Virus record (IMG/VR): IMGVR_UViG_3300050821_002697
Coordinates: 1 to 23,050 of that record
Source: a virus
Reading direction: 5' to 3' (one strand)
DNA length: 23,050 bases
A program made the position numbers and the translations under genes. The notes under the pieces are model-generated. The model saw only the letters and a program-made list of their open reading frames with translations. It had not been told where the DNA came from and did not search any database. Shown in pieces: positions 15,121-22,961 of the stretch (its first letter is position 1; the number at the start of each line of letters is the position of its first letter).

Positions 15121-15297
15121 TGCACTCAGACTTGGGACTGAGTAAGTGCATTAGATTAGGTAGATGCTCATGAGTTCATCTTTTTGAAGTATGTACACAC
15201 TTCTTATCTATTCGTGTAGCGAATAACAGTAAACGAGCCGCCTACTGGCGGAACATCGTTCTATTATTCACGCACTTAAAGACCTAATTCCCTCTGC
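15121..15297 (-). ncRNA. Twister-type ribozyme 1 (promoter-proximal, giant P1 loop)
   Basis: Minus-strand RNA: P2' GCA (15297-15295), GA, pseudoknot strand GGGA (15292-15289), P1 AUUAGGU/ACCUAAU (15288-15282/15161-15155), cleavage expected U15153/A15152, AA, P2 UGC, P4 CUCAG/CUGAG around loop UCCCAAGU (15137-15130). UCCC pairs with GGGA. The P1 loop is about 120 bases and holds further hairpins (CCGCC-TACT-GGCGG; ATTCG-TGTAG-CGAAT). After cleavage UGCAC can pair with GUGCA next to the ribosome site. It lies about 20 bases after the start predicted from the 15323-15351 promoter, so cleavage would release a leader RNA of about 165 bases. Confidence 0.85.
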
Positions 15298-15322
15298 GAA
15301 CAAACAATCTGTCAAAAAAATG

Positions 15323-15351
15323 ATTATATCATAGACAGAAATGTTTGTCAA
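15323..15351 (-). promoter_or_regulatory. Perfect consensus sigma70 promoter for the SWIM-SNF2-ERF operon
   Basis: TTGACA (15351-15346), 17-base spacer, TATAAT (15328-15323) on the minus strand: a full match with optimal spacing, like the one at 999-1027. Start of transcription is expected near 15316, before ribozyme 1. It overlaps, in the opposite direction, the control region of the plus-strand HNH gene. Confidence 0.92.
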
Positions 15352-15358
15352 GAGTCAA

Positions 15359-15387
15359 TTTAAATAGTGACTATTTTGTGGTATACT
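15359..15387 (+). promoter_or_regulatory. Promoter of leaderless HNH gene
   Basis: TTTAAA (15359-15364), 17-base spacer, TATACT (15382-15387), with TGG before the -10 as an extended -10 element. The ATG at 15394 follows after six bases, placing the predicted first transcribed base on the start codon. It is divergent from, and close to, the minus-strand promoter at 15323-15351, so the two may interfere. Confidence 0.6.
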
Positions 15388-15393
15388 TTCCCT

Positions 15394-15816
15394 ATGAAAA
15401 CCTGTACGGACTGTTTAGTTACGAAGGAACTTTCTGAATTCCATAAAAGTAGAAATACTTTAGATGGATATCATACGATTTGTAAAGCTTGTCGTCGAAC
15501 AATGAATGCAGCATATGGAGTTAATATTCGACGACAGGTTGTTTTAAAACTTGGGGTAAGATGTTCAAATCCAAATTGTGGTTGGATTAATGAAGATGGG
15601 ACGAGAGGATGTTCAGATATTCGTGCTTTACAAATTGACCACATAAACGGGGGAGGATATAAAGAATTTTACTTGGCTGGTGGATCAGGCAATTTTTATA
15701 GAGAACTTCTTAATCTTCCAATTGACCAATTAAAATCTAGATATCAAATGTTATGTGCCAATTGTAATTGGATTAAACGTCATGTTCGAGAACGAGAACA
15801 TCGATTAAATGTGTAG
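15394..15816 (+). CDS. HNH endonuclease, leaderless
   Basis: This 140-residue protein has two N-terminal CxxC pairs (KTCTDCLVTKEL and TICKACRR), then CSNPNCGWIN, and the HNH core: LQIDHINGGGYKEF followed by YQMLCANCNWIKRHVRE. HNH enzymes cut DNA with a single metal ion; free-standing phage members of this type are often homing endonucleases. It is the only plus-strand gene in the right half and sits between oppositely oriented units, as expected of an inserted mobile gene. No Shine-Dalgarno is present; see the promoter entry. Its 3' end overlaps the convergent DUF6011-like gene by 12 bases. Confidence 0.85.
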   Translation: MKTCTDCLVTKELSEFHKSRNTLDGYHTICKACRRTMNAAYGVNIRRQVVLKLGVRCSNPNCGWINEDGTRGCSDIRALQIDHINGGGYKEFYLAGGSGNFYRELLNLPIDQLKSRYQMLCANCNWIKRHVREREHRLNV

Positions 15817-16506
15817 TATTTGTCGCAATAACTCTTCGGTATCATCTTTGAATTGCTTTATGCAGATCGGGCCGATACCTTGTTCTATCGATTCAGGGTC
15901 GGTAAGTGTGCGGCCACAAATACCACAAACTCCAATCATCCTACCGTAAAGCATTGTTGCAGACAAAGGGTCTTGCATGATTTTAACTAATGCATCTTCA
16001 TGAGTGCCCTGATATTTCTGACCGGGCCGCTGAGTTCCAATTCTAAGTTTATTATCAGAACTCATAATGTTAGCAAATATCCAACCATTCCACTTTGACT
16101 TTTCATCTTTGATATTACTAACATCGTAAAAAGATGCATCATTGTTTGCATTCAATACTGCGTACTTACCGGATGGTAGTGGTCTAAGATCGAGTGCCAC
16201 TTTTCCGGTAGTTAGTTCATCAATTATTTGTTGCGCCGCTTTCTCAGCACTAAGAACTTCATTGCGAATAAAGTTCAATAGTCCACGTTTTTGTCCTACA
16301 CTCAGTCGGCCCCATGTTTTTCGTGCGGCCATAACCGATTGAACAAAATCGTTTGCTGTACCTGTTGAAATTTGTGCTTCAGCCCATGCAATTGCGTCTG
16401 CAACCCATTCAGGATGATCGTTTACATCACCGTCAGTAAACTTCTGATCCTGATATGCATTTTCAATTGCATGAATTAGATTAGACGAGATCATGTTATA
16501 TGCCAT
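15805..16506 (-). CDS. DUF6011-like zinc-knuckle protein
   Basis: This 233-residue protein's C-terminus reads GVCGICGRTLTDPESIEQGIGPICIKQF, the four-cysteine motif (CxxCgrxLtdpeS...GiGPxC) of DUF6011 proteins common in phages and actinobacteria. The N-terminal part is helical; the middle (LPSGKYAVLNANNDASFYDV) resembles a small beta domain often paired with this motif. Function unknown, with nucleic-acid association plausible. Start MAYNMISS at 16506 overlaps the previous gene by 11 bases. It is the last gene of the ribozyme-processed transcript and converges on the HNH gene. Confidence 0.78.
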   Translation of the reverse strand: MAYNMISSNLIHAIENAYQDQKFTDGDVNDHPEWVADAIAWAEAQISTGTANDFVQSVMAARKTWGRLSVGQKRGLLNFIRNEVLSAEKAAQQIIDELTTGKVALDLRPLPSGKYAVLNANNDASFYDVSNIKDEKSKWNGWIFANIMSSDNKLRIGTQRPGQKYQGTHEDALVKIMQDPLSATMLYGRMIGVCGICGRTLTDPESIEQGIGPICIKQFKDDTEELLRQILHI

Positions 16507-16738
16507 AGTTTGTTTCTTTGGCAAGTTTCGCTGTTGCCATAAGTTCTGCTCCAAAACTCTCAACGTCATTCGCCATATGATTTAAAACTCCATTGTTAAA
16601 AAACTCAGGAGCTAAATCCTTTAGTTTGTCAAAATTAAACAAAAGACTTTTACAGCTTTCATCAATTGCATTGACAAGAACTCGAATGTTTACTTTAAAG
16701 AGTTCAGGATCACCACGAATAAACTCTCTTTCGTTCAT
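16496..16738 (-). CDS. Hypothetical protein
   Basis: This 80-residue protein is not recognised; helical and moderately acidic, no cysteines apart from one near residue 29. AAAGGAGAAAT precedes the ATG, and the expected 5' end made by ribozyme 16752-16901 lies 48 bases upstream. It overlaps the DUF6011-like gene by 11 bases, so these two form one processed mRNA. Confidence 0.7.
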   Translation of the reverse strand: MNEREFIRGDPELFKVNIRVLVNAIDESCKSLLFNFDKLKDLAPEFFNNGVLNHMANDVESFGAELMATAKLAKETNYGI

Positions 16739-16751
16739 ATTTCTCCTTTAT

Positions 16752-16901
16752 ATGTGGGTCTGACTTGGGACAGACCATTGCACATTAATCGGCTGATGCA
16801 TTGAATACCACTACGTTTTTTTCTAGCGGTGTCTACACCGGGCAGTATCCCATCACATCATTTAACCGCACATTCCATTATTGCGGCACCGACCCCTCTG
16901 T
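16752..16901 (-). ncRNA. Twister-type ribozyme 2
   Basis: P2' ACA (16901-16899), GA, GGGG (16896-16893), P1 UCGG/CCGA (16892-16889/16792-16789) extended by UGC/GCA, cleavage U16787/A16786, AA, P2 UGU (16784-16782), P4 GGUCUG/CAGACC (16776-16771/16762-16757) with loop UCCCAAGU (16770-16763). P2 here is ACA/UGU where most copies have GCA/UGC, a compensatory change. The outer leader stem AUGUG/CACAU also changes with it. Pseudoknot GGGG/UCCC uses one G-U pair. The roughly 100-base P1 loop contains CGGTGT-AG-ACACCG. Its 5' edge is inside the TAA stop of 16901..17059. Confidence 0.85.
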
Positions 16902-17059
16902 TACGCAGGACTTATTACTACAGTTATTTCACCATCGACTATTTTGTCATCGACTATGATATCGGGATATTGATTTCCAGTATGGTCTTCAAGTTCTAGT
17001 ACTACAACTAGATGATCTCCGTAATCTTCTAGTGCTTCTTTTAGGTCTTTAACTCTCAT
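16901..17059 (-). CDS. Small acidic hypothetical protein
   Basis: This 52-residue protein is strongly acidic with alternating hydrophobic strands (HLVVVLELED, PDIIVDDKIVDGEITVVIS), probably a small beta-rich fold. The ATG overlaps the stop of 17056..17367 (ATGA). The TAA stop shares its last A with the 5' end of ribozyme 16752-16901. It resembles 4910..5116 only loosely. Function unknown. Confidence 0.7.
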   Translation of the reverse strand: MRVKDLKEALEDYGDHLVVVLELEDHTGNQYPDIIVDDKIVDGEITVVISPA

Positions 17060-17367
17060 TTTCTCACCGCCTTAAGCATTAATTGAAGTAACTTGGGATC
17101 AACTTGTTTTCCGGCTTCTTCTTCTTTCTGTTCACATTGACCACAAACTAATTTATGGCCGGGAGCCGCTAAGAGTCCGTAACAATTCGTGGCTTTCCAT
17201 TCTTTGTAGGTGTCAGATGTGTAGTCGAAATTGAAACACCATATTCCTTTCATTTCTCCACATTCAATACAGATTCGAACACAGTCTGAACAGTAGTGAA
17301 CATGAGAAAGATCGAAGTTTTCATATATGATGTCTTTGTGACAATAAAGACAATCGTTTTTCATCAT
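17056..17367 (-). CDS. Multi-cysteine zinc protein
   Basis: This 103-residue protein has at least four Cys pairs or near pairs: CLYCHKD, YCSDCVRICIECGE and VCGQCEQ, plus single Cys and His residues between, so two or three zinc sites are likely. The start MM follows the TAA stop of 17367..17804 with a TAATG overlap. No specific family is recognised; protein or nucleic-acid binding is plausible. Confidence 0.75.
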   Translation of the reverse strand: MMKNDCLYCHKDIIYENFDLSHVHYCSDCVRICIECGEMKGIWCFNFDYTSDTYKEWKATNCYGLLAAPGHKLVCGQCEQKEEEAGKQVDPKLLQLMLKAVRK

Positions 17368-17804
17368 TATGCTGTCATGTATCTCCTTTTACTTTGGCTA
17401 TATTGAATTACAATCAAAGTTATAATCCAAAAAATAAGCCACAAACAAGCGGATGCCACTACTGATCTTGAAGTCGCAGGATGGAATAGTATTAATGGAT
17501 GTAGATTATCTAGCCATGGAAGATTTTCTGGAATTGATTTGAAATCAAACCAATAGTAAAGAATATCTGCCAAGCCACTATTTGCCAATGTCCACGTAAC
17601 ACTTACAAACCATAGCGACCATAGAAACCTTAATTGCGAAGCTACAAGTGCAATTAATAGCAGAAAAAATGCTTGATGCCAATATTGGTATTGAGCATCG
17701 AACTGCCATAAATGTCTTGCTTCGAATAGGCGTTGCCAAATTAAAATATCTTGGATAATCCAAGCTGACAATGTTATGGCAACTGCCATAACAGGTTTTC
17801 GCAT
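17367..17804 (-). CDS. Membrane protein, about four TM segments
   Basis: This 145-residue protein has hydrophobic segments near 5-22, 46-68, 70-88 and 116-138. Polar, Trp-rich loops join them and the C-terminus is basic (SQSKRRYMTA). No family is recognised. The ATG at 17804 (MRKPVMAV) is chosen because GAAGGTGA lies before it and the predicted ribozyme-made 5' end is 42 bases upstream; a longer frame from 17837 would run into the ribozyme. Confidence 0.72.
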   Translation of the reverse strand: MRKPVMAVAITLSAWIIQDILIWQRLFEARHLWQFDAQYQYWHQAFFLLLIALVASQLRFLWSLWFVSVTWTLANSGLADILYYWFDFKSIPENLPWLDNLHPLILFHPATSRSVVASACLWLIFWIITLIVIQYSQSKRRYMTA

Positions 17805-17818
17805 TTTTATCACCTTCT

Positions 17819-17878
17819 TGCGGGATTGTGACCGCATATCCGCATTAACCGGGCTTTTTATGGCCCGGCCACTCTGCG
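17819..17878 (-). ncRNA. Twister-type ribozyme 3 (compact, variant pseudoknot)
   Basis: P2' CGCA (17878-17875), GA, GUGG (17872-17869), P1 CCGGGC/GCCCGG (17868-17863/17854-17849) with an eight-base loop, cleavage U17847/A17846, AA, P2 UGCG, P4 UGCGG/CCGCA (17836-17832/17823-17819) with loop UCACAAUC (17831-17824). Loop UCAC pairs with GUGG, where the common copies have UCCC and GGGA. The two positions change together, strong support for the pseudoknot. P2 and P1 are also intact. Here P4 itself can pair with P2's strand, so a separate outer leader stem is not visible. Confidence 0.82.
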
Positions 17879-17881
17879 ATT

Positions 17882-18151
17882 TTATTCTGCTATGTGTAAA
17901 TGTTTAGCGATTGCCTTAAGTCCAATGCGAATTGCATCTTCAGGCCCAAATCGGATTATGTAAGAGTCTTTTCCATCTCTAGATTTGATAACCAATCCAT
18001 TGTTTCTTATCACAAAAATATGACTATCTCGGAAATCAACTAAAGCATCCTCAATTGCTTTACGTCCAACTTCTAGAAGGTCATTATCATTTGCAATTTC
18101 CCTTAAAAAGGTGATATCTTTTCTAGATATAAGTGGATATTTTCTACCCAA
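17882..18151 (-). CDS. Hypothetical protein
   Basis: This 89-residue protein is not recognised. It is basic at the N-terminus, then helical (ITFLREIANDNDLLEVGRKAIEDAL), then a beta-like part (SHIFVIRNNGLVIKS). It overlaps 18144..18497 by eight bases. The stop TAA lies three bases before ribozyme 17819-17878. Confidence 0.7.
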   Translation of the reverse strand: MGRKYPLISRKDITFLREIANDNDLLEVGRKAIEDALVDFRDSHIFVIRNNGLVIKSRDGKDSYIIRFGPEDAIRIGLKAIAKHLHIAE

Positions 18152-18497
18152 TTTTTCTCCTTCGTGTGTATTGCGCGGCTTTGAATTGCCACGATGATTT
18201 TACATCGGGGGCCGACAAAGCCAACACATTTTGAATTGTTCGATTTTTTTCTATAACTGCAATTTCACGTTGCAATTTACAGTTTGGACACTTATCTTTG
18301 AGATAAAATTCAAATTGTCGAAGATCAGAACCTCTCATTCTAACGATTGAATCTCCGATTTTTACGAATGCGTATTGAAAGTGAACTTCAAGAACAGTCC
18401 ATTTCACACAATGTCCTGCCAACATTCCACCATGTAGAATGTCATCTTTACGCAATTCACGAGTAGTTAAGATTCGATTTGAATCATACACTTTCAT
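18144..18497 (-). CDS. Hypothetical protein with one CxxC
   Basis: This 117-residue protein's first two thirds look beta-rich (WTVLEVHFQYAFVKIGDSIVRMRG); a CPNC pair in KDKCPNCKLQREIAVIEKN starts a charged helical end. The CxxC is alone, so full zinc binding would need a dimer or other ligands. It overlaps its upstream neighbour by 14 bases. Function unknown. Confidence 0.7.
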   Translation of the reverse strand: MKVYDSNRILTTRELRKDDILHGGMLAGHCVKWTVLEVHFQYAFVKIGDSIVRMRGSDLRQFEFYLKDKCPNCKLQREIAVIEKNRTIQNVLALSAPDVKSSWQFKAAQYTRRRKIG

Positions 18498-18696
18498 GAG
18501 CGTCTTTCCAAAGTTGCTCGGATTGAATTTCTGTTGCGAGTTGTTCTAGAATATTTTCAATGAAAGGATTAGCGCGAATTCCATCTTCATCAACCCAAAA
18601 CCCTATCGGTTCTGAGTTTTGTTGTTTTTGTTCGATACGTTCGAATTCACACCAAACATCCTTAGGGTCAGATGTATTTCGAATTTGTATAACCAT
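18484..18696 (-). CDS. Hypothetical protein
   Basis: This 70-residue protein is acidic, with two halves: a Trp-containing strand region (VIQIRNTSDPKDVWCEFERI) and an acidic helix (FIENILEQLATEIQSEQLW). AAGGAG precedes the ATG. The ribozyme-made 5' end is expected 46 bases upstream. It is the first of three overlapping genes in one processed mRNA (18696-17882). Confidence 0.7.
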   Translation of the reverse strand: MVIQIRNTSDPKDVWCEFERIEQKQQNSEPIGFWVDEDGIRANPFIENILEQLATEIQSEQLWKDAHESV

Positions 18697-18708
18697 ATAT
18701 TCTCCTTA

Positions 18709-18778
18709 ATGCAATCTCGACTTGGAACGAGATTTGTGCATTAAAAAGGGCCCCACATTGGAGCCCTTTTTCCTCTGC
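18709..18778 (-). ncRNA. Twister-type ribozyme 4 (P1 doubles as terminator-like hairpin)
   Basis: P2' GCA (18778-18776), GA, GGAA (18773-18770), P1 AAAGGGC/GCCCUUU (18769-18763/18751-18745), cleavage U18743/A18742, AA, P2 UGC, P4 AAUCUCG/CGAGAUU (18734-18728/18719-18713), loop UUCCAAGU (18727-18720). The loop base change (UUCC) is matched by GGAA in the partner strand: direct covariation. P1 followed by five U residues also looks like an intrinsic terminator, so termination and cleavage may compete. UGCAU near the ribosome site can pair with AUGCA after cleavage. Confidence 0.86.
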
Positions 18779-18791
18779 AAATCAGAGTTTG

Positions 18792-19220
18792 TTACTTAGC
18801 GGTAAGTCCGACCAACTGTGAAAGTTCACCGGAAACATCCTTACCCTCAGCCGATGCCGCCAAAAGTGCGGTAATCTGCGGGGCCTTGGTCGGGTCTTTC
18901 ATCGCTGCGCGCAGCAACTTAATTGCGGCCTGCTCGGTTTCCTTCGAAACCAACTTGCGCGGCCTACCGCGACCAGAAACCTTCGAAGATTCCGCAGTAT
19001 CAACCTGCAAAGTAACCTTTCCTGATTTCTTAGCGGTGCGCGACTTAACGACATGGCCCTGCGATTCACCAAGTGCTGTAAGGGCACTCTCGGGATCAAA
19101 ATCCGCTGACTTGTGCCATCGAACTACGATGGAATTGTAAGCGGATTCCTTTGGAGTTTTTGCCTCACCGTTTACACTTGCAGTTTCCGACTTGGCCGCT
19201 GTCTCTGACTTCTTTGCCAT
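18792..19220 (-). CDS. AT-hook-like basic protein
   Basis: This 142-residue protein is rich in Lys, Ala, Ser and Thr, with a GRGRPRK core (about residues 82-88) identical to the AT-hook that binds the minor groove of AT-rich DNA. It is preceded by KSRTAKKSGKVTLQV and followed by helices. In an AT-rich phage it could be a DNA-organising or regulatory protein; this is inferred. Its GC content is higher than its neighbours. It is a monocistronic unit, flanked by ribozymes 18709-18778 and 19241-19316. GAAGGAGCCC precedes the ATG. Confidence 0.75.
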   Translation of the reverse strand: MAKKSETAAKSETASVNGEAKTPKESAYNSIVVRWHKSADFDPESALTALGESQGHVVKSRTAKKSGKVTLQVDTAESSKVSGRGRPRKLVSKETEQAAIKLLRAAMKDPTKAPQITALLAASAEGKDVSGELSQLVGLTAK

Positions 19221-19240
19221 TTTCGGGCTCCTTCGTTTTC

Positions 19241-19316
19241 TGCGGATAGTCTATGGATTGGCTTTAGACAATCTCATGCCGCATTAACGGGTCTACTTTA
19301 GACCCGCCTATCTGCG
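19241..19316 (-). ncRNA. Twister-type ribozyme 5 (variant loop UCUAAAGC)
   Basis: P2' CGCA (19316-19313), GA, UAGG (19310-19307), P1 CGGGUCUA/UAGACCCG (19306-19299/19295-19288) with a three-base loop, cleavage U19286/A19285, AA, P2 UGCG, P4 GAUUG/CAAUC (19273-19269/19260-19256), loop UCUAAAGC (19268-19261). UCUA pairs with UAGG (one G-U), replacing UCCC/GGGA. A leader stem TGCGG/CCGCA (19241-19245/19279-19283) can form after cleavage. The distance from cleavage to the ATG is 65 bases, the only one outside 42-49. Confidence 0.8.
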
Positions 19317-19342
19317 TTGTCAAGTACTTTGCGAAAATAGTT

Positions 19343-19630
19343 TTAGAGTCTAGGATGCCTTTTATATGCCGCAGGTACGCGGCCACCTAGACGCCTAACA
19401 GATTTTCGCCATTGGTCATCATGTCCGGTATCTGCGGCCAAATGACCGATTTCGTGAACTAGTAACTCCCTAAGATTAGTCAGCGTTTTGGCACATACGA
19501 AACCAAGAAACTCTCGGCCCGTGCCCGTTATATGTGCGTGTGCATCGACATTGATTCCATACTCGGAACCGTCGATACACTTTGGGCCGATGTGAATTCC
19601 GCGAAGCGGAGTTTTAAATCTCACATTCAT
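19343..19630 (-). CDS. SprT-like zinc metallopeptidase-type protein
   Basis: This 95-residue protein contains LLVHEIGHLAADTGHDDQWRKSVRRLGGR: HEIGH with H59, E60 and H63, then H70 and W74, the HExxH plus downstream His and Trp pattern of small SprT-like and related metallopeptidases. The domain is minimal in size. Substrate unknown; phage members may act on DNA-protein crosslinks or host proteins, but that is inference. It lies 12 bases after the stop of 19645..19848, and its ribosome site (AGTAGTAAG) is weak. Confidence 0.78.
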   Translation of the reverse strand: MNVRFKTPLRGIHIGPKCIDGSEYGINVDAHAHITGTGREFLGFVCAKTLTNLRELLVHEIGHLAADTGHDDQWRKSVRRLGGRVPAAYKRHPRL

Positions 19631-19644
19631 AGCTTACTACTACT

Positions 19645-19848
19645 TTATGAAACTCGATTAATACAAATAACTGATCCTGGTGCAATTTCAATTAAATCGT
19701 ATCCTAAATCAGACGCTAAAGCTTCCATTAACGCTTCTTTAGCATGATTCTTAGAATCACAGGAAATTGCATGATTGTTTTTTGTATTAACGAGTGTCCA
19801 ATGTCCATATTCATTCTTTTTAATGATGTATGGGCAAGTTGATATCAT
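19645..19848 (-). CDS. Hypothetical protein
   Basis: This 67-residue protein is not recognised; possible small alpha/beta fold with three Cys (TCPYIIKK, ISCDSKN, VICINRVS). AAAGGAGAAAAT precedes the ATG. The ribozyme-made 5' end is expected 44 bases upstream. It shares its mRNA with the SprT-like gene. Confidence 0.7.
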   Translation of the reverse strand: MISTCPYIIKKNEYGHWTLVNTKNNHAISCDSKNHAKEALMEALASDLGYDLIEIAPGSVICINRVS

Positions 19849-19863
19849 TTATTTTCTCCTTTT

Positions 19864-20002
19864 ATCACGACTTGGGACGTGATTTGCACATTAAATCCGG
19901 CTGGTGCGCTTTTAACGTAGTGTTTTATGAACTAGTATTTACACTAATCGTGACTGTCACACCATTTTTCCAATTCCGCTATTGGCACCGGATTCCCTCT
20001 GT
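19864..20002 (-). ncRNA. Twister-type ribozyme 6
   Basis: P2' ACA (20002-20000), GA, GGGA (19997-19994), P1 AUCCGG/CCGGAU (19993-19988/19901-19896 region), cleavage U19893/A19892, AA, P2 UGU (19890-19888), P4 AUCACG/CGUGAU (19883-19878/19869-19864), loop UCCCAAGU (19877-19870). It shares the compensated ACA/UGU P2 with ribozyme 16752-16901. The P1 loop is about 85 bases. This is the one copy with no UGCAU-like strand before the ribosome site, so the post-cleavage leader stem is only P4. The stop codon of 20003..20188 ends directly at its 5' edge. Confidence 0.84.
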
Positions 20003-20188
20003 TTAGGTTTTTAGATTTGCTGGATTACATGCATCCAAAAATCTTTGACGCTTAAACTTGGGATTGTCAATTTGCAATACATCAGCTATATTTTCAACGA
20101 CAATCCAAAAAGTACGCGTTGAAAGAGTGGGATTTTCTCCTGTTTCTGCTAATCTCTGGGCCAATGCCACGTAATCTTTTCGTGTCAT
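20003..20188 (-). CDS. Small hypothetical protein
   Basis: This 61-residue protein is helical; LAQRLAETGENPT ... TFWIVVENIADVLQIDNPKFKRQRFLDAC. This layout recurs in small phage and plasmid proteins of unknown function whose genes sit beside ssDNA or recombination genes. The ATG overlaps the TGA of 20185..20391. Its TAA stop directly precedes ribozyme 19864-20002. Confidence 0.7.
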   Translation of the reverse strand: MTRKDYVALAQRLAETGENPTLSTRTFWIVVENIADVLQIDNPKFKRQRFLDACNPANLKT

Positions 20189-20391
20189 GTTGAAATTTCA
20201 CCCTCTGGCGAAATTCCGCCATAAACCGGATGGCCGTTAGGGTCAAGCGTAATTGACAAATAACCCGCAGGTAATCCGTACGCACCATGATAGACCCAAA
20301 TTCCATGCCATTTTTCGGCATCCTCTTGTAGTCTTTCACGTTGCTTATTTGTGATGATATCTTCGATACCACCTTGCTTAAAAACAACCAT
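20185..20391 (-). CDS. Small hypothetical protein
   Basis: This 68-residue protein is helical at first (IEDIITNKQRERLQEDAEKW), then a small beta part (GIWVYHGAYGLPAGYLSITLDPNG). No family recognised. AAAGGAGAAAAACC precedes the ATG, and ribozyme 20406-20484 should cut 48 bases upstream. Confidence 0.7.
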   Translation of the reverse strand: MVVFKQGGIEDIITNKQRERLQEDAEKWHGIWVYHGAYGLPAGYLSITLDPNGHPVYGGISPEGEIST

Positions 20392-20405
20392 GGTTTTTCT
20401 CCTTT

Positions 20406-20484
20406 ATGCAATCGAGACTTGGGACTCGATATGTGCATTAAATCGGAGAGATAATGAATTATCTAACTCTCCGATTCCCTCTGC
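20406..20484 (-). ncRNA. Twister-type ribozyme 7
   Basis: P2' GCA (20484-20482), GA, GGGA (20479-20476), P1 AUCGGAGAG/CUCUCCGAU (20475-20467/20450-20442), nine perfect pairs, cleavage U20440/A20439, AA, P2 UGC (20437-20435), P4 AUCGAG/CUCGAU (20430-20425/20416-20411), loop UCCCAAGU (20424-20417). AUGCA (20438-20434) can instead pair with UGCAU (20410-20406), which lies just before AAAGGAG. This is a clear, regular example of the family. Confidence 0.88.
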
Positions 20485-20487
20485 TAT

Positions 20488-20787
20488 CTATGCATCCTTG
20501 AGATAAGGAGACATATAAGTTTTAGTATCGTCAATTCGCAATGGACAATCTTCAGTAGTATGAAAATCTTGTGCTTCTTTTTCAGTAATGTACGAATAAT
20601 CGTACAATCCATATTTGACAGGAATTCTAAACAATTCTGGACGAGTTTTCCACGTTTTAGTCTTACCATTTCGCCGCCATACTTCGATACGTGGCATAGT
20701 TTGACCACCACGCGGCCCCACTATAATTTTCGAAGAATGAGCAAAATGGAATTCATTTGCTGTTAGTGCTTGCTCTTTTGTAATCAT
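20488..20787 (-). CDS. Hypothetical protein, conserved-looking
   Basis: This 99-residue protein begins MITKEQALTANEFHF, has VWRRNGKTKTWKTRPELFRI and PVKYGLYDYSYITEKEAQ. The basic, Trp-rich centre suggests a small nucleic-acid or nucleotide-binding fold, but I know no function. The ATG overlaps the LAGLIDADG gene's TGA. The TAG stop lies three bases before ribozyme 20406-20484. Confidence 0.75.
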   Translation of the reverse strand: MITKEQALTANEFHFAHSSKIIVGPRGGQTMPRIEVWRRNGKTKTWKTRPELFRIPVKYGLYDYSYITEKEAQDFHTTEDCPLRIDDTKTYMSPYLKDA

Positions 20788-21197
20788 ACATTCTTATTCC
20801 TTTTATAGACCAATATTTGCCGTGCCTGTTCTATCTCAAGATTTTCAGCAATAGCTTTCATTGCTTGAATCTTCTTGACAATTGACAAATAAGGCCACAT
20901 TTTTAATAGGGCTGTCTTAGCCTGTTTTCCGCTGGCAGCAAATCTGTACACTTGCTGTCGTTCTAGAGATCGCTTTTCAGCGCGCACCCATCCACAACCT
21001 AATGCAACCCTGAATCTTTCAAGAATTTCTGGCGCATACTCTCCAGATTGCGAAGCTTCGATTTGAATTTGGAAATACCCTCCATATTTCAGAGTATTAC
21101 GAGTATGCCCTTCACCATCAAAAAAGCCTGCGGCCCACGCTATTTCCGTAATTTCAGAGGCTTCCATATAACGCCCCATTTTTGGGCCAAAAGCCAT
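20784..21197 (-). CDS. LAGLIDADG homing endonuclease-like protein (5' end unclear)
   Basis: The frame from 21197 codes for 137 residues with one LAGLIDADG-type motif, ITEIAWAAGFFDGEGHTRN, followed by YFQIQIEASQ and LERFRVALGCGWV, as in single-motif family members that dimerise to cut DNA or act as maturases. No convincing ribosome site precedes 21197. The distance from ribozyme 21252-21355 (cleavage 21286) to 21197 would be 89 bases, while all other spacings point to the ATG at 21238, which is in another frame. A -1 shift at the AAAAA run near 21175-21179 would join the two. Either a frameshift exists, or the gene inserted behind an older start. Confidence 0.75.
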   Translation of the reverse strand: MAFGPKMGRYMEASEITEIAWAAGFFDGEGHTRNTLKYGGYFQIQIEASQSGEYAPEILERFRVALGCGWVRAEKRSLERQQVYRFAASGKQAKTALLKMWPYLSIVKKIQAMKAIAENLEIEQARQILVYKRNKNV

Positions 21198-21238
21198 CCC
21201 AAAGAACGCACACTAACCGGGCCTGGAATACTTGCCAT
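21140..21238 (-). CDS. Short ORF at the ribozyme-defined start
   Basis: The ATG at 21238 has AAGGAG before it and lies 48 bases after the predicted cleavage, exactly as for other genes here, but its frame (MASIPGPVSVRSLG...) stops after 32 codons, inside the LAGLIDADG gene. It may be the true N-terminus of that protein in a frameshifted gene, a remnant of a gene disrupted by the endonuclease, or a short leader peptide giving coupled translation. Confidence 0.5.
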   Translation of the reverse strand: MASIPGPVSVRSLGWLLAQKWGVIWKPLKLRK

Positions 21239-21251
21239 ATTTAATCTCCTT

Positions 21252-21355
21252 ATGCATTGCAGACTTGGGACTGCAAATTGTGCATTAAATTCTGGCGCAA
21301 ACTGTCATGTTTGCATTAAATCCGCTGAAATTACGGATACCAGAATTCCCTCTGC
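21252..21355 (-). ncRNA. Twister-type ribozyme 8 with an internal decayed copy
   Basis: P2' GCA (21355-21353), GA, GGGA (21350-21347), P1 AUUCUGG/CCAGAAU (21346-21340/21295-21289), cleavage U21287/A21286, AA, P2 UGC, P4 UUGCAG/CUGCAA (21276-21271/21262-21257), loop UCCCAAGU (21270-21263). AUGCA/UGCAU can form the leader stem. Inside the P1 loop a second CGGAU-UUAAUGC segment (about 21336-21312) follows its own hairpin AUCCG/CGGAU and leads to GCAAAC/GUUUGC with the wrong loop, as if a duplicated 3' half had decayed. The 5' edge shares a base with the TAG stop of 21355..21591. Confidence 0.86.
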
Positions 21356-21591
21356 TAACTACTCCAATAAGTCTCAGACAATGGTGAAGTATTGTATGCA
21401 ATCATTCGCATTGTGCGGTGATTCTTGCACATTACATTGCGCCATTCTGGATCATTATTTGCTTTGGCTTTTTGACGAGAATGTGTGCAAGTAACACAGA
21501 GTAATGAGGAATCGTAAATTTCCTTATAACTCTCGTGCAATTCTTTCTCTGCACGTTCCCGCGCTTCACCTTCGATTCTACCGTATGGCAT
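21355..21591 (-). CDS. Small Cys/His protein
   Basis: This 78-residue protein starts with a helical, acidic region (RIEGEARERAEKELHESYKE), then LLCVTCTHSRQKAK and VMCKNHRTMRM, giving C, C, C, H suitable for one zinc ion. The ribosome site GGATGGTGA is weak. It follows the 43-residue ORF at 21597..21728 after five bases. Function unknown. Confidence 0.7.
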   Translation of the reverse strand: MPYGRIEGEARERAEKELHESYKEIYDSSLLCVTCTHSRQKAKANNDPEWRNVMCKNHRTMRMIAYNTSPLSETYWSS

Positions 21592-21596
21592 TTATT

Positions 21597-21728
21597 TCAC
21601 CATCCCATCGCTGCACGATACTGCTCATTAGCAATTTTCCATGCAAGCGGATTTGAATTGTAATCGATGGAGTATCTTTTATTCCACCAAAACCATCTAG
21701 TTTCATAAAGTCCGTTAAGAAACTTCAT
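21597..21728 (-). CDS. Tiny hypothetical protein (43 residues)
   Basis: The ATG at 21728 has GGAG eight bases upstream and reads MKFLNGLYETRWFWW ... RAAMGW, then TGA. It is rich in aromatic residues and basic. It overlaps the end of 21715..21882 by 14 bases, the usual pattern here, and is followed by 21355..21591. Short, but the ribosome site and coupling on both sides support it. Confidence 0.6.
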   Translation of the reverse strand: MKFLNGLYETRWFWWNKRYSIDYNSNPLAWKIANEQYRAAMGW

Positions 21729-21882
21729 GATTTATTCTCCAAATTGTAGAGACTCCCAAATCTCGTGCATTGTGAATTTGTCTCATTCTACGATTAGCAC
21801 TCGATTTGTAAGTGTAGGTTCGTGTGGGCCATCGCTTTCTAGCTTGCGGTGAACCGCCAACTATCACGCGAAATTTCACCAT
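21715..21882 (-). CDS. Tiny basic protein (55 residues)
   Basis: The ATG at 21882, with AAGGAGAAAATA before it, reads MVKFRVIVGGSPQARKRWP ... TIWRINHEVS. It is strongly basic with few acidic residues, consistent with nucleic-acid binding. The predicted cleavage of ribozyme 21896-22005 lies 49 bases upstream. It is the first gene of a three-gene processed mRNA (21882-21355). Confidence 0.65.
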   Translation of the reverse strand: MVKFRVIVGGSPQARKRWPTRTYTYKSSANRRMRQIHNARDLGVSTIWRINHEVS

Positions 21883-21895
21883 TATTTTCTCCTTA

Positions 21896-22005
21896 ATGTG
21901 CGCTCAAACTTGGGATTGAGCATCGCGCATTAAAATTAGGGCTGTGGTTGGGTTTCCATCCACATTTAATTTCGTTCTCTTAACGAAAACCCTAATTCCC
22001 TCTGC
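21896..22005 (-). ncRNA. Twister-type ribozyme 9
   Basis: P2' GCA (22005-22003), GA, GGGA (22000-21997), P1 AUUAGGG/CCCUAAU (21996-21990/21941-21935), cleavage U21932/A21931, AA, P2 UGC, P4 GCUCAA/UUGAGC (21921-21916/21907-21902), loop UCCCAAGU (21915-21908). The leader stem is AUGCGCG against CGCACAU with one mismatch. The roughly 48-base P1 loop holds a CGTT-CTCTT-AACG hairpin. The 5' edge is the G of the TAG stop of 22005..22193. Confidence 0.86.
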
Positions 22006-22193
22006 TAGAGATATTTGTTTTCGAATTCTTCCAATCGAGAGACTTGATCCTTAACGTATCTCTCGTCATTTTCGCGCAATGGCCCAGAGAGTAAATCCTT
22101 AAGCCACATTCTGCGCGTAATTAGCGACATTCGCAAGACTTCCATTTCAGTCTCACTTAGAGATTTCGTAAAAATGTCAGATTTTGTAATCAT
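22005..22193 (-). CDS. Small helical hypothetical protein
   Basis: This 62-residue protein is charged and helical throughout (ETEMEVLRMSLITRRMWLKDLL, VKDQVSRLEEFENKYL), without cysteine. The ATG overlaps the TGA of 22190..22411. No family recognised. Its TAG stop shares its final G with ribozyme 21896-22005. Confidence 0.7.
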   Translation of the reverse strand: MITKSDIFTKSLSETEMEVLRMSLITRRMWLKDLLSGPLRENDERYVKDQVSRLEEFENKYL

Positions 22194-22411
22194 GACAGTC
22201 TCTCGATTTCACTAGCAACGTAATCTCTCACGAGTTTATATGCGTTGGCTTGCGCGGCCATCTCGTGATACATGAGATTTGCATTGCGATTCTTGGGTTC
22301 GTTCCAAGAGATTGTAAATAGACGATTCGCTTCACCCTGAGCATGCGCTCGCATAGATTCTGCAAAATCGCCAACATTTCGCAAACCCTTCAATTGCATT
22401 TCTTCTACCAT
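22190..22411 (-). CDS. Small helical hypothetical protein
   Basis: This 73-residue protein is Ala-rich and helical (VGDFAESMRAHAQGEANRLF, YHEMAAQANAYKLVRDYV). The ATG at 22411 is preferred because GGAG lies six bases upstream and the ribozyme-made 5' end is 46 bases away; the frame is open further upstream but through the ribozyme. It is co-transcribed with 22005..22193. Confidence 0.7.
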   Translation of the reverse strand: MVEEMQLKGLRNVGDFAESMRAHAQGEANRLFTISWNEPKNRNANLMYHEMAAQANAYKLVRDYVASEIERLS

Positions 22412-22424
22412 TTTTTTCTCCATT

Positions 22425-22490
22425 ATGCTGTACAGACTTGGGACTGTACTGTGCATTAAATTGCGCCACATTAGCGCAATTCCCTCTGCG
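22425..22490 (-). ncRNA. Twister-type ribozyme 10 (smallest complete copy)
   Basis: P2' CGCA (22490-22487), GA, GGGA (22484-22481), P1 AUUGCGC/GCGCAAU (22480-22474/22466-22460) with a seven-base loop, cleavage U22458/A22457, AA, P2 UGC (22455-22453), P4 GUACAG/CUGUAC (22449-22444/22435-22430), loop UCCCAAGU (22443-22436). AUGC/GCAU gives the leader stem. With only 66 bases it is the clearest minimal copy. It begins right after the TAA stop of 22491..22877. Confidence 0.88.
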
Positions 22491-22877
22491 TTAGGGTTTA
22501 GTACAAATTACCATACAGGTAATATTGTCGTTTAGATTGTTTAATGTTGGTGGAGTAGGATTTGGTGATGTTGCAGGAATTGTGGGCCAAATCAAATCGG
22601 GCGCGGCCATGATCGCGGCAATATTTGGTGAGTTTGCGCTCTTACTAGAAGCTTTTTTCGCTTTCTTGGGGCGCTTTACTCCCGCAGTCTTGCAGACGTT
22701 TGTTTGTGATGCTACTTCCACATTTGCACATGCAATTGAAAGCGACAAACCGACCACTACTTTGTGAGTAATTTTAGTAGGTGGCTTAGGCTTAGTGGCA
22801 GCATCAACGTTTGAGACTGCGCCAATCATTAGCAATCCACAAATTCCTGTGACTGCCAATATCCGAGATATTCGCAT
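22491..22877 (-). CDS. Secreted protein with signal peptide
   Basis: This 128-residue protein has a classic Sec signal: MRISRILAVTG, hydrophobic core GICGLLMIGAVS, probable cleavage after NVDA (about residue 26). The mature part is basic (RPKKAKKASSKSAN), then Pro/Asn-rich (TSPNPTPPTLNNLNDN), with four cysteines in two pairs (ACANVEVASQTNVC and TCMVIC) that could form disulfides. An exported protein among early phage genes might alter the host surface or block superinfection; this is speculation. AAGGGAG precedes the ATG. Confidence 0.78.
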   Translation of the reverse strand: MRISRILAVTGICGLLMIGAVSNVDAATKPKPPTKITHKVVVGLSLSIACANVEVASQTNVCKTAGVKRPKKAKKASSKSANSPNIAAIMAAPDLIWPTIPATSPNPTPPTLNNLNDNITCMVICTKP

Positions 22878-22887
22878 GTTTTTCTCC

Positions 22888-22961
22888 CTTACTAATGGTC
22901 AGACTTTGGACTGACCTAGTGAGTTAAAATGGCCCGAAAATTTGGGCCATTTCCATCCTCA
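22888..22961 (-). ncRNA. Twister-type ribozyme 11 (most divergent, fully compensated)
   Basis: P2' UGAG (22961-22958), GA, UGGA (22955-22952), P1 AUGGCCC/GGGCCAU (22950-22944/22935-22929), cleavage U22926/A22925, AA, P2 CUCA (22923-22920), P4 GGUCAG/CUGACC (22916-22911/22902-22897), loop UCCAAAGU (22910-22903). Both the P2 helix (UGAG/CUCA) and the pseudoknot (UGGA/UCCA) differ from the common sequence and still pair perfectly, the best single test of the model. P1 followed by UUUU also resembles an intrinsic terminator. Cleavage is 48 bases before the ATG of 22491..22877. Confidence 0.86.

Follow-up and report, generated by a model that had tools for sequence, protein, structure and literature searches.

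The type-P5 class of twister ribozymes was reportedly described by Roth et al. in 2014, and RNase-based intercistronic processing, in which cuts between the genes of a polycistronic RNA yield short, stable, hairpin-ended mRNAs, is familiar from the RNase III sites of T7. The plastid intercistronic expression element is a further case of RNase-based intercistronic processing (PMC2230500). The clustering of twisters near phage genes has been reported without explanation (PMC10085705), and the theta (HDV-like) ribozymes of gut phages have been proposed to process tRNA 3' trailers (PMC10879173). Here we describe an array of eleven type-P5 twister ribozymes in the IMG/VR virus record IMGVR_UViG_3300050821_002697, the whole of which (23,050 bases) is referred to as the window, and we argue that the array probably processes the phage transcript that contains it.

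In their strand order, UAA cleavage step, GA plus T1 strand, L4 of the form U-CCC-AA-GY, double pseudoknot T1/T2 and helices P1, P2 and P4, the window copies resemble the described type-P5 twister (RF02684; reviewed in PMC5408937), but they differ from it in lacking a P5 stem, in carrying P1 inserts and a strand able to re-pair with P2, and in forming a dense intercistronic array. With the reported phage-associated ribozymes they share an association with phages, clustering with other ribozymes and a function stated as unknown, whereas here, in many phages, the elements are fixed between the stop codon and the Shine-Dalgarno (SD) site across nearly all gaps of one region, with leaders of near-constant length. 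Theta ribozymes, likewise, are encoded by phages, cleave themselves and have been proposed to act on phage transcripts, but the predicted targets here are mRNAs and the ribozyme class differs. RNase-based processing requires a protein nuclease, whereas in the present case the RNA would cut itself. The ribozyme class is already known; in the literature searched we found no description of dense intercistronic twister arrays, of the re-pairing strand or of the P1 insert, with the reservation that the 2014 class-defining paper might mention tandem copies.

Type-P5 twister ribozymes in the window

All eleven elements lie on the minus strand, between 15123 and 22960:

Copy 1: 22897-22960, minus; P2 GAG/CUC, T1 UGGA/UCCA; predicted cut U22926^A22925; leader of 48 nt to the ATG at 22877; Rfam (span 22899-22960, 43.4 bits, lax filters) and descriptor
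Copy 2: 22430-22489, minus; predicted cut U22458^A22457; P2' adjoins the stop codon of gene 22491-22877; Rfam (48.3 bits) and descriptor
Copy 3: 21901-22005, minus; predicted cut U21932^A21931; three-way-junction P1 insert at 21932-21999; descriptor
Copy 4: 21257-21355, minus; predicted cut U21287^A21286; 42-nt branched P1 insert; Rfam (40.2 bits)
Copy 5: 20411-20484, minus; predicted cut U20440^A20439; Rfam (48.6 bits)
Copy 6: 19864-20002, minus; predicted cut U19893^A19892; 85-nt three-way-junction P1 insert (junction 19893-19995); descriptor
Copy 7: 19256-19315, minus; T1 UAGG/UCUA; predicted cut U19286^A19285; 65-nt leader; Rfam (46.8 bits)
Copy 8: 18713-18778, minus; predicted cut U18743^A18742; Rfam (48.2 bits)
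Copy 9: 17819-17877, minus; T1 GUGG/UCAC, T2 GA/UC; predicted cut U17847^A17846; Rfam (55.1 bits) and descriptor
Copy 10: 16757-16901, minus; predicted cut U16787^A16786; 94-nt three-way-junction P1 insert (junction 16787-16894); descriptor
Copy 11: 15123-15297, minus; predicted cut U15153^A15152; 120-nt P1 insert; precedes the gene that comes before the SNF2-type helicase gene; descriptor

A strict descriptor derived from the twister secondary structure (P2 of 3 bp, GA, T1 of 4 bp, P1 of at least 5 bp, UAA, P4 of at least 4 bp, and L4 of the form U...AA) gave exactly these 11 matches in 23 kb, none of them elsewhere in the window, and no match in 60 dinucleotide-preserving shuffles. The Rfam covariance model for Twister-P5 (RF02684) matches seven of the eleven, all above its gathering score of 37.6 bits and with the scores listed above, copy 1 surfacing only under laxer filters; no other Rfam family reached its cut-off in the window. 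Inserts of 16-120 nt interrupt P1 in six copies, and the four of these that escape the Rfam model do so because their inserts are long (44, 85, 94 and 120 nt). A hairpin-ribozyme match at 16501-16536 was rejected as chance (24.9 bits, where the cut-off is 65; E 0.61).

Within P1, P2, P4, T1 and T2 of the eleven copies, 99.5% of 209 pair cells hold standard pairs, and two-sided changes occur at 18 of 19 pairs: at every one of the 13 in P1, P2 and P4, at three of the four in pseudoknot T1 (L1-L4), and at both in pseudoknot T2 (L2-L4). This level was reached in none of 500 shuffles, and slid partners were at most 39% paired. T2, which played no part in finding the copies, takes the forms AC/GU, GC/GU, GC/GC and GA/UC in the window and is paired in 121 of the 131 copies of the larger set introduced below (AC/GU 63, GC/GC 41, GC/GU 9, GG/CC 4, AG/CU 3 and GA/UC 1); in twisters, T2 and a near-invariant G-C pair extending P4 have been described previously (PMC5408937).

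The U^A cleavage step, the GA in L1 and the AA in L4 are invariant in all eleven copies, GA and AA being also fixed by the descriptor and seen independently in the Rfam matches. The strand order P2'-L1-P1-P2-P4, again common to all eleven, puts the termini in the P5 position. A paired P5 stem is absent, as upstream and downstream segments pair no better than swapped ones (p = 0.41). Judged by model, covariation and sequence, the eleven elements are bona fide type-P5 twister ribozymes. An earlier sequence-only reading of this DNA, which had placed eleven minus-strand type-P5 twisters at this location, is borne out by the descriptor, by the seven Rfam matches and by the covariation in P2 and T1; the covarying pairs that it quoted are all correct, and T2 was absent from it.

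Conservation and recurrence of the array

A syntenic relative of the window phage, here called G022 (IMGVR_UViG_3300005458_000001; 69,908 bp), was reached via the ribozyme pattern and shares about 55% protein identity (SNF2-type helicase 57% over 818 aa, DnaB-like helicase 55%, ERF-like protein 53%). Searches of phage records and of viral contigs by DNA and by the helicase protein turned up no close relatives. G022 also carries eleven twisters, at 15,173-23,867, with none found in the rest of its genome, and in both phages the array spans a region of small genes and ends before the helicase and replication genes. Five ribozyme positions are orthologous and a sixth is probably so:

Window 21257 (copy 4): G022 18345-18435
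Window 20411 (copy 5): G022 18702-18760
Window 19256 (copy 7): G022 15173-15233; both upstream of the same gene (18792-19220)
Window 16757 (copy 10): G022 22669-22779
Window 15123 (copy 11): G022 23731-23867
Window 19864 (copy 6): G022 19200-19347, probable ortholog

At the orthologous positions the P1 and P4 sequences differ between the two phages.

The sequence-only reading had also held that such an array appears unusual. It is not unique: same-strand arrays of 3-20 Rfam matches occur in at least 24 IMG/VR viral contigs (the largest hold 20, 15 and 14 matches, in contigs of 90.6, 82.9 and 46 kb respectively). First search patterns gave mostly chance matches (Rfam matches in two of 49 contigs); a gapped twister-P5 pattern matched 79 stretches of viral contigs, with Rfam matches in nearly all of the contigs concerned. 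When T1 was relaxed to 3 bp, the descriptor yielded 131 copies in 22 fully read regions, on a single strand within each contig, and none in shuffled sequence. Compared by shared proteins over the array regions alone, the 22 regions fall into about fourteen groups, which suggests that the arrays belong to many lineages. The twister pattern was found in three stretches or contigs among 84,980 bacterial and archaeal genomes, two of them confirmed by Rfam, and because of this near-absence the array is mainly a trait of uncultured phages. Where cultured phages are concerned, five phage records that rank among the nearest by protein have no array.

Placement and the re-pairing strand

The copies occupy a constrained place between genes. 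In 90 of the 131, the upstream stop codon ends -5 to +1 nt from the first P2' base, and in 29 its last base is shared with P2'; an SD-like site and a start codon follow within 80 nt of P4' in 125. For these 125 copies, drawn from the 22 regions, the predicted leader from cut to start codon has a median of 50 nt (quartiles 45 and 56). The window leaders measure 44-49 nt in nine of eleven cases and 42 and 65 nt in the remaining two, and successive cuts would release fragments of 468-1634 nt. The AUG within UAAUGC was considered as a start codon and treated as chance, as it reads through only in a few copies.

After P4', most window copies carry a short segment complementary to the 5' strand of P2 and its neighbours (for example AUGCA/UGCAU, AUGUG/CACAU, UGCGG/CCGCA and AAUG/CAUU), a feature absent from the sequence-only reading. 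The summed helix score is 102 in the window and 61.8 (standard deviation 5.2) for shuffled downstream segments (z = 7.8, 0/1000), and exchanging segments between copies worsened the fit (p = 0.027). Copy-specific re-pairing strands are also present in the array phages G053 (z 8.8, p 0.031) and G065 (z 10.3, p 0.0002); in G022 and G084 the scores exceed those of shuffles (z about 4) and copy-specific matching was not seen. Because this pairing needs a strand that P2 occupies beforehand, it most likely forms after cleavage, giving a hairpin that would run from one or a few bases off the new 5' end to just before the SD site, as in copy 5:

20403-20439, minus: predicted post-cleavage 5'-terminal hairpin of copy 5, 5'-A-AUGCA-CAU-P4-L4-P4'-UGCAU, ending just before AAAGGAG

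Similar pairing is found at eight other window copies.

Probable processing of the phage transcript and alternative explanations

We consider it probable that the array self-processes a polycistronic phage transcript and thereby serves as the built-in mRNA-processing system of this operon region. RNA polymerase would read the 8 kb of small genes as a single minus-strand transcript, with almost no terminators between the genes. The ribozyme in each intercistronic gap would fold as it is transcribed, forming P2, P1, P4, T1 and T2, and would cut at U^A between P1 and P2. From established twister chemistry, the upstream mRNA would end a few nucleotides past its stop codon, with the P1 hairpin and a 2',3'-cyclic phosphate, and the downstream mRNA would begin with 5'-OH-AAUGC, followed by the P4 hairpin and a near-constant leader of about 48 nt to the start codon. 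Re-pairing of the freed P2 strand with the segment after P4' may help the products to separate, work against religation and close the new 5' end, with the SD site left open. The phage would probably benefit by obtaining numerous short mRNAs that decay independently and have uniform, RNase-resistant ends, with no need for additional promoters, terminators or RNase III/E sites.

Processing of a long transcript, supposed there to be an early one, had been proposed in the sequence-only reading, and the placement, the conservation and the geometry shared by many phages lend the processing strong support. Several observations weigh on the other side. Copy 11 lies behind a promoter of its own, so that a single long transcript is not the whole story; 17 of the 131 copies share sequence with a long reading frame on their own strand; several array phages have no re-pairing strand, which is thus not a general part of the system; the G closing L4 is kept in 130 of the 131 copies, the sole exception being copy 3, which has A-U; and no cultured relative was found.

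The promoter in question brings in the alternative that survives best, although we regard it as unlikely, namely that the twisters do cut and act as self-cleaving 5' untranslated regions, trimming 5' ends or controlling downstream translation, several of them with their own promoters.

15323-15351, minus: sigma-70-type promoter, perfect TTGACA-17-TATAAT with TG before the -10, 26 nt upstream of copy 11

The counterpart in G022 (position 23653; TTGACA-16-TATCAT) likewise precedes its ribozyme, by 51 nt; copy 7 overlaps a promoter-like sequence (TTGACA-17-TAAAGT; 19295-19323, minus), and the near-constant leader length would also suit such a role. Behind its promoter, copy 11 would remove a triphosphate leader, trimming a primary 5' end instead of separating two cistrons, so that defining the 5' end may matter as much as gene separation. 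Most copies, however, adjoin an upstream stop codon, and strong promoters are few per array: among the 11 units of the window, just one lies upstream of a ribozyme. The G022 ortholog of copy 7 (15173-15233) has GGTATAAT in its P1 loop.

It is far less probable that the elements are catalytically dead twister relics retained only as structured leaders. The loss in copy 3 of the near-invariant G before L4 fits that idea, and copy 3 may be weak; the other ten copies, on the other hand, keep the bases conserved over the 131, U^AA is present in all, and it is difficult to see why the active-site pseudoknots should covary if there were no catalysis. Slightly less credible again is a mobile RNA or repeat element (a twister-bearing circular RNA or a retrozyme-like element) that has spread and been tolerated in the gaps. 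There are many copies per genome, and mobile RNA elements elsewhere do use ribozymes (PMC7761336), but no resemblance links P1, P4 or the inserts of different copies, the ribozymes keep their positions beside orthologous genes and relative to stop and start codons, the copies keep to a single strand, and neither flanking repeats nor a reverse transcriptase was seen. Least plausible of all are twister-like intrinsic terminators or attenuators made of P1 and U-rich sequence: copy 8, whose P1 and U-run (GGGCUCC..GGGGCCC-UUUUU) resemble and score as an intrinsic terminator, holds the one such site in the window array, but it alone of the eleven copies qualifies (GC-rich stem plus U-run; the others have UUAAU or less), terminator-like sites are no commoner in the region than in shuffles, and P2, T1 and T2 covary.

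The three-way-junction domain of P1

A three-way junction of the form GGU - hairpin A - UUAAAU - hairpin B - A - GCC, in which both hairpins vary freely, recurs in several P1 inserts of the window and of G022 and in one from G058, a phage unrelated to them, giving at least two unrelated phages with this domain. In addition to the window junctions listed with copies 3, 6 and 10, the following were found, the stand-alone copies last:

L150:17002-17060: three-way junction in P1
L150:17473-17530: three-way junction in P1
L151:2676-2750: three-way junction in P1
L241:13715-13774: three-way junction in P1 (G058)
L151:935-998 (= L029:4883-4946): stand-alone, in G022, followed by a terminator-like hairpin
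L235:290-356: stand-alone, filling the gap between two tRNA genes of a 203-kb contig
L271:9918-9967: stand-alone
L274:7243-7294: stand-alone

A scan of 2.57 Mb for the junction gave 20 matches (with duplicates among overlapping loci) and one in shuffled sequence, the loci scanned having been chosen partly by that very motif. No Rfam family fits the stand-alone form. The Pistol ribozyme (RF02679), which shares a hairpin-UUAAAU element with the P1 insert, was rejected, giving no match above cut-off in 14 records with the insert motif or twister arrays. At L274, L267, L275 and L266 the loop of hairpin A is, by eye, complementary to that of hairpin B. The domain is possibly a sensor, a protein-binding site or a stabilising element.

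Neighbouring genes

Some genes around the array differ between the window and G022. A homing-endonuclease-like gene (20784-21197, minus; phrog_5046, E 2.6e-13) stands between copy 4 and the next conserved gene, and G022 has none at the corresponding place. Upstream of the copy-11 promoter lies a lone opposite-strand open reading frame (15367-15816, plus; 149 aa) whose zinc-finger match is weak (E 0.004); in G022 the equivalent gap measures just about 130 nt. Two tRNA genes (G022:22290-22446, equivalent to L029:6238-6394) sit just upstream of the G022 twister at 22669, and the window has no tRNA gene. The small protein encoded at 19343-19630 (minus) has, by eye, a HEIGH zinc-protease-like motif and no Pfam match.

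Implications for phage biology

What twister and hammerhead ribozymes do near phage genes has been called unknown in the literature (PMC10085705, PMC5408937). In many phage groups, stop codon, ribozyme, a leader of about 50 nt and start codon follow one another in a fixed geometry, and this arrangement offers a concrete and testable purpose for phage ribozymes, namely the protein-free self-processing of polycistronic phage RNA into uniform mRNAs. This reading predicts exact 5'-OH ends, which can be searched for in existing metatranscriptomes, and the elements of the array would provide ready-made parts for cutting operons into independent mRNAs. More tentatively, it is possible that many phage lineages have regionally replaced promoters, terminators and nuclease sites by a dense array of ribozymes that turns the transcript into standardised mRNAs by self-processing. 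The ribozymes would each be coupled to the upstream stop codon, in some phages with a re-pairing strand that seals the new end, and in some copies with a conserved P1 three-way-junction domain, found in phage RNAs by itself as well, which might regulate cleavage as a sensor or by binding a protein.

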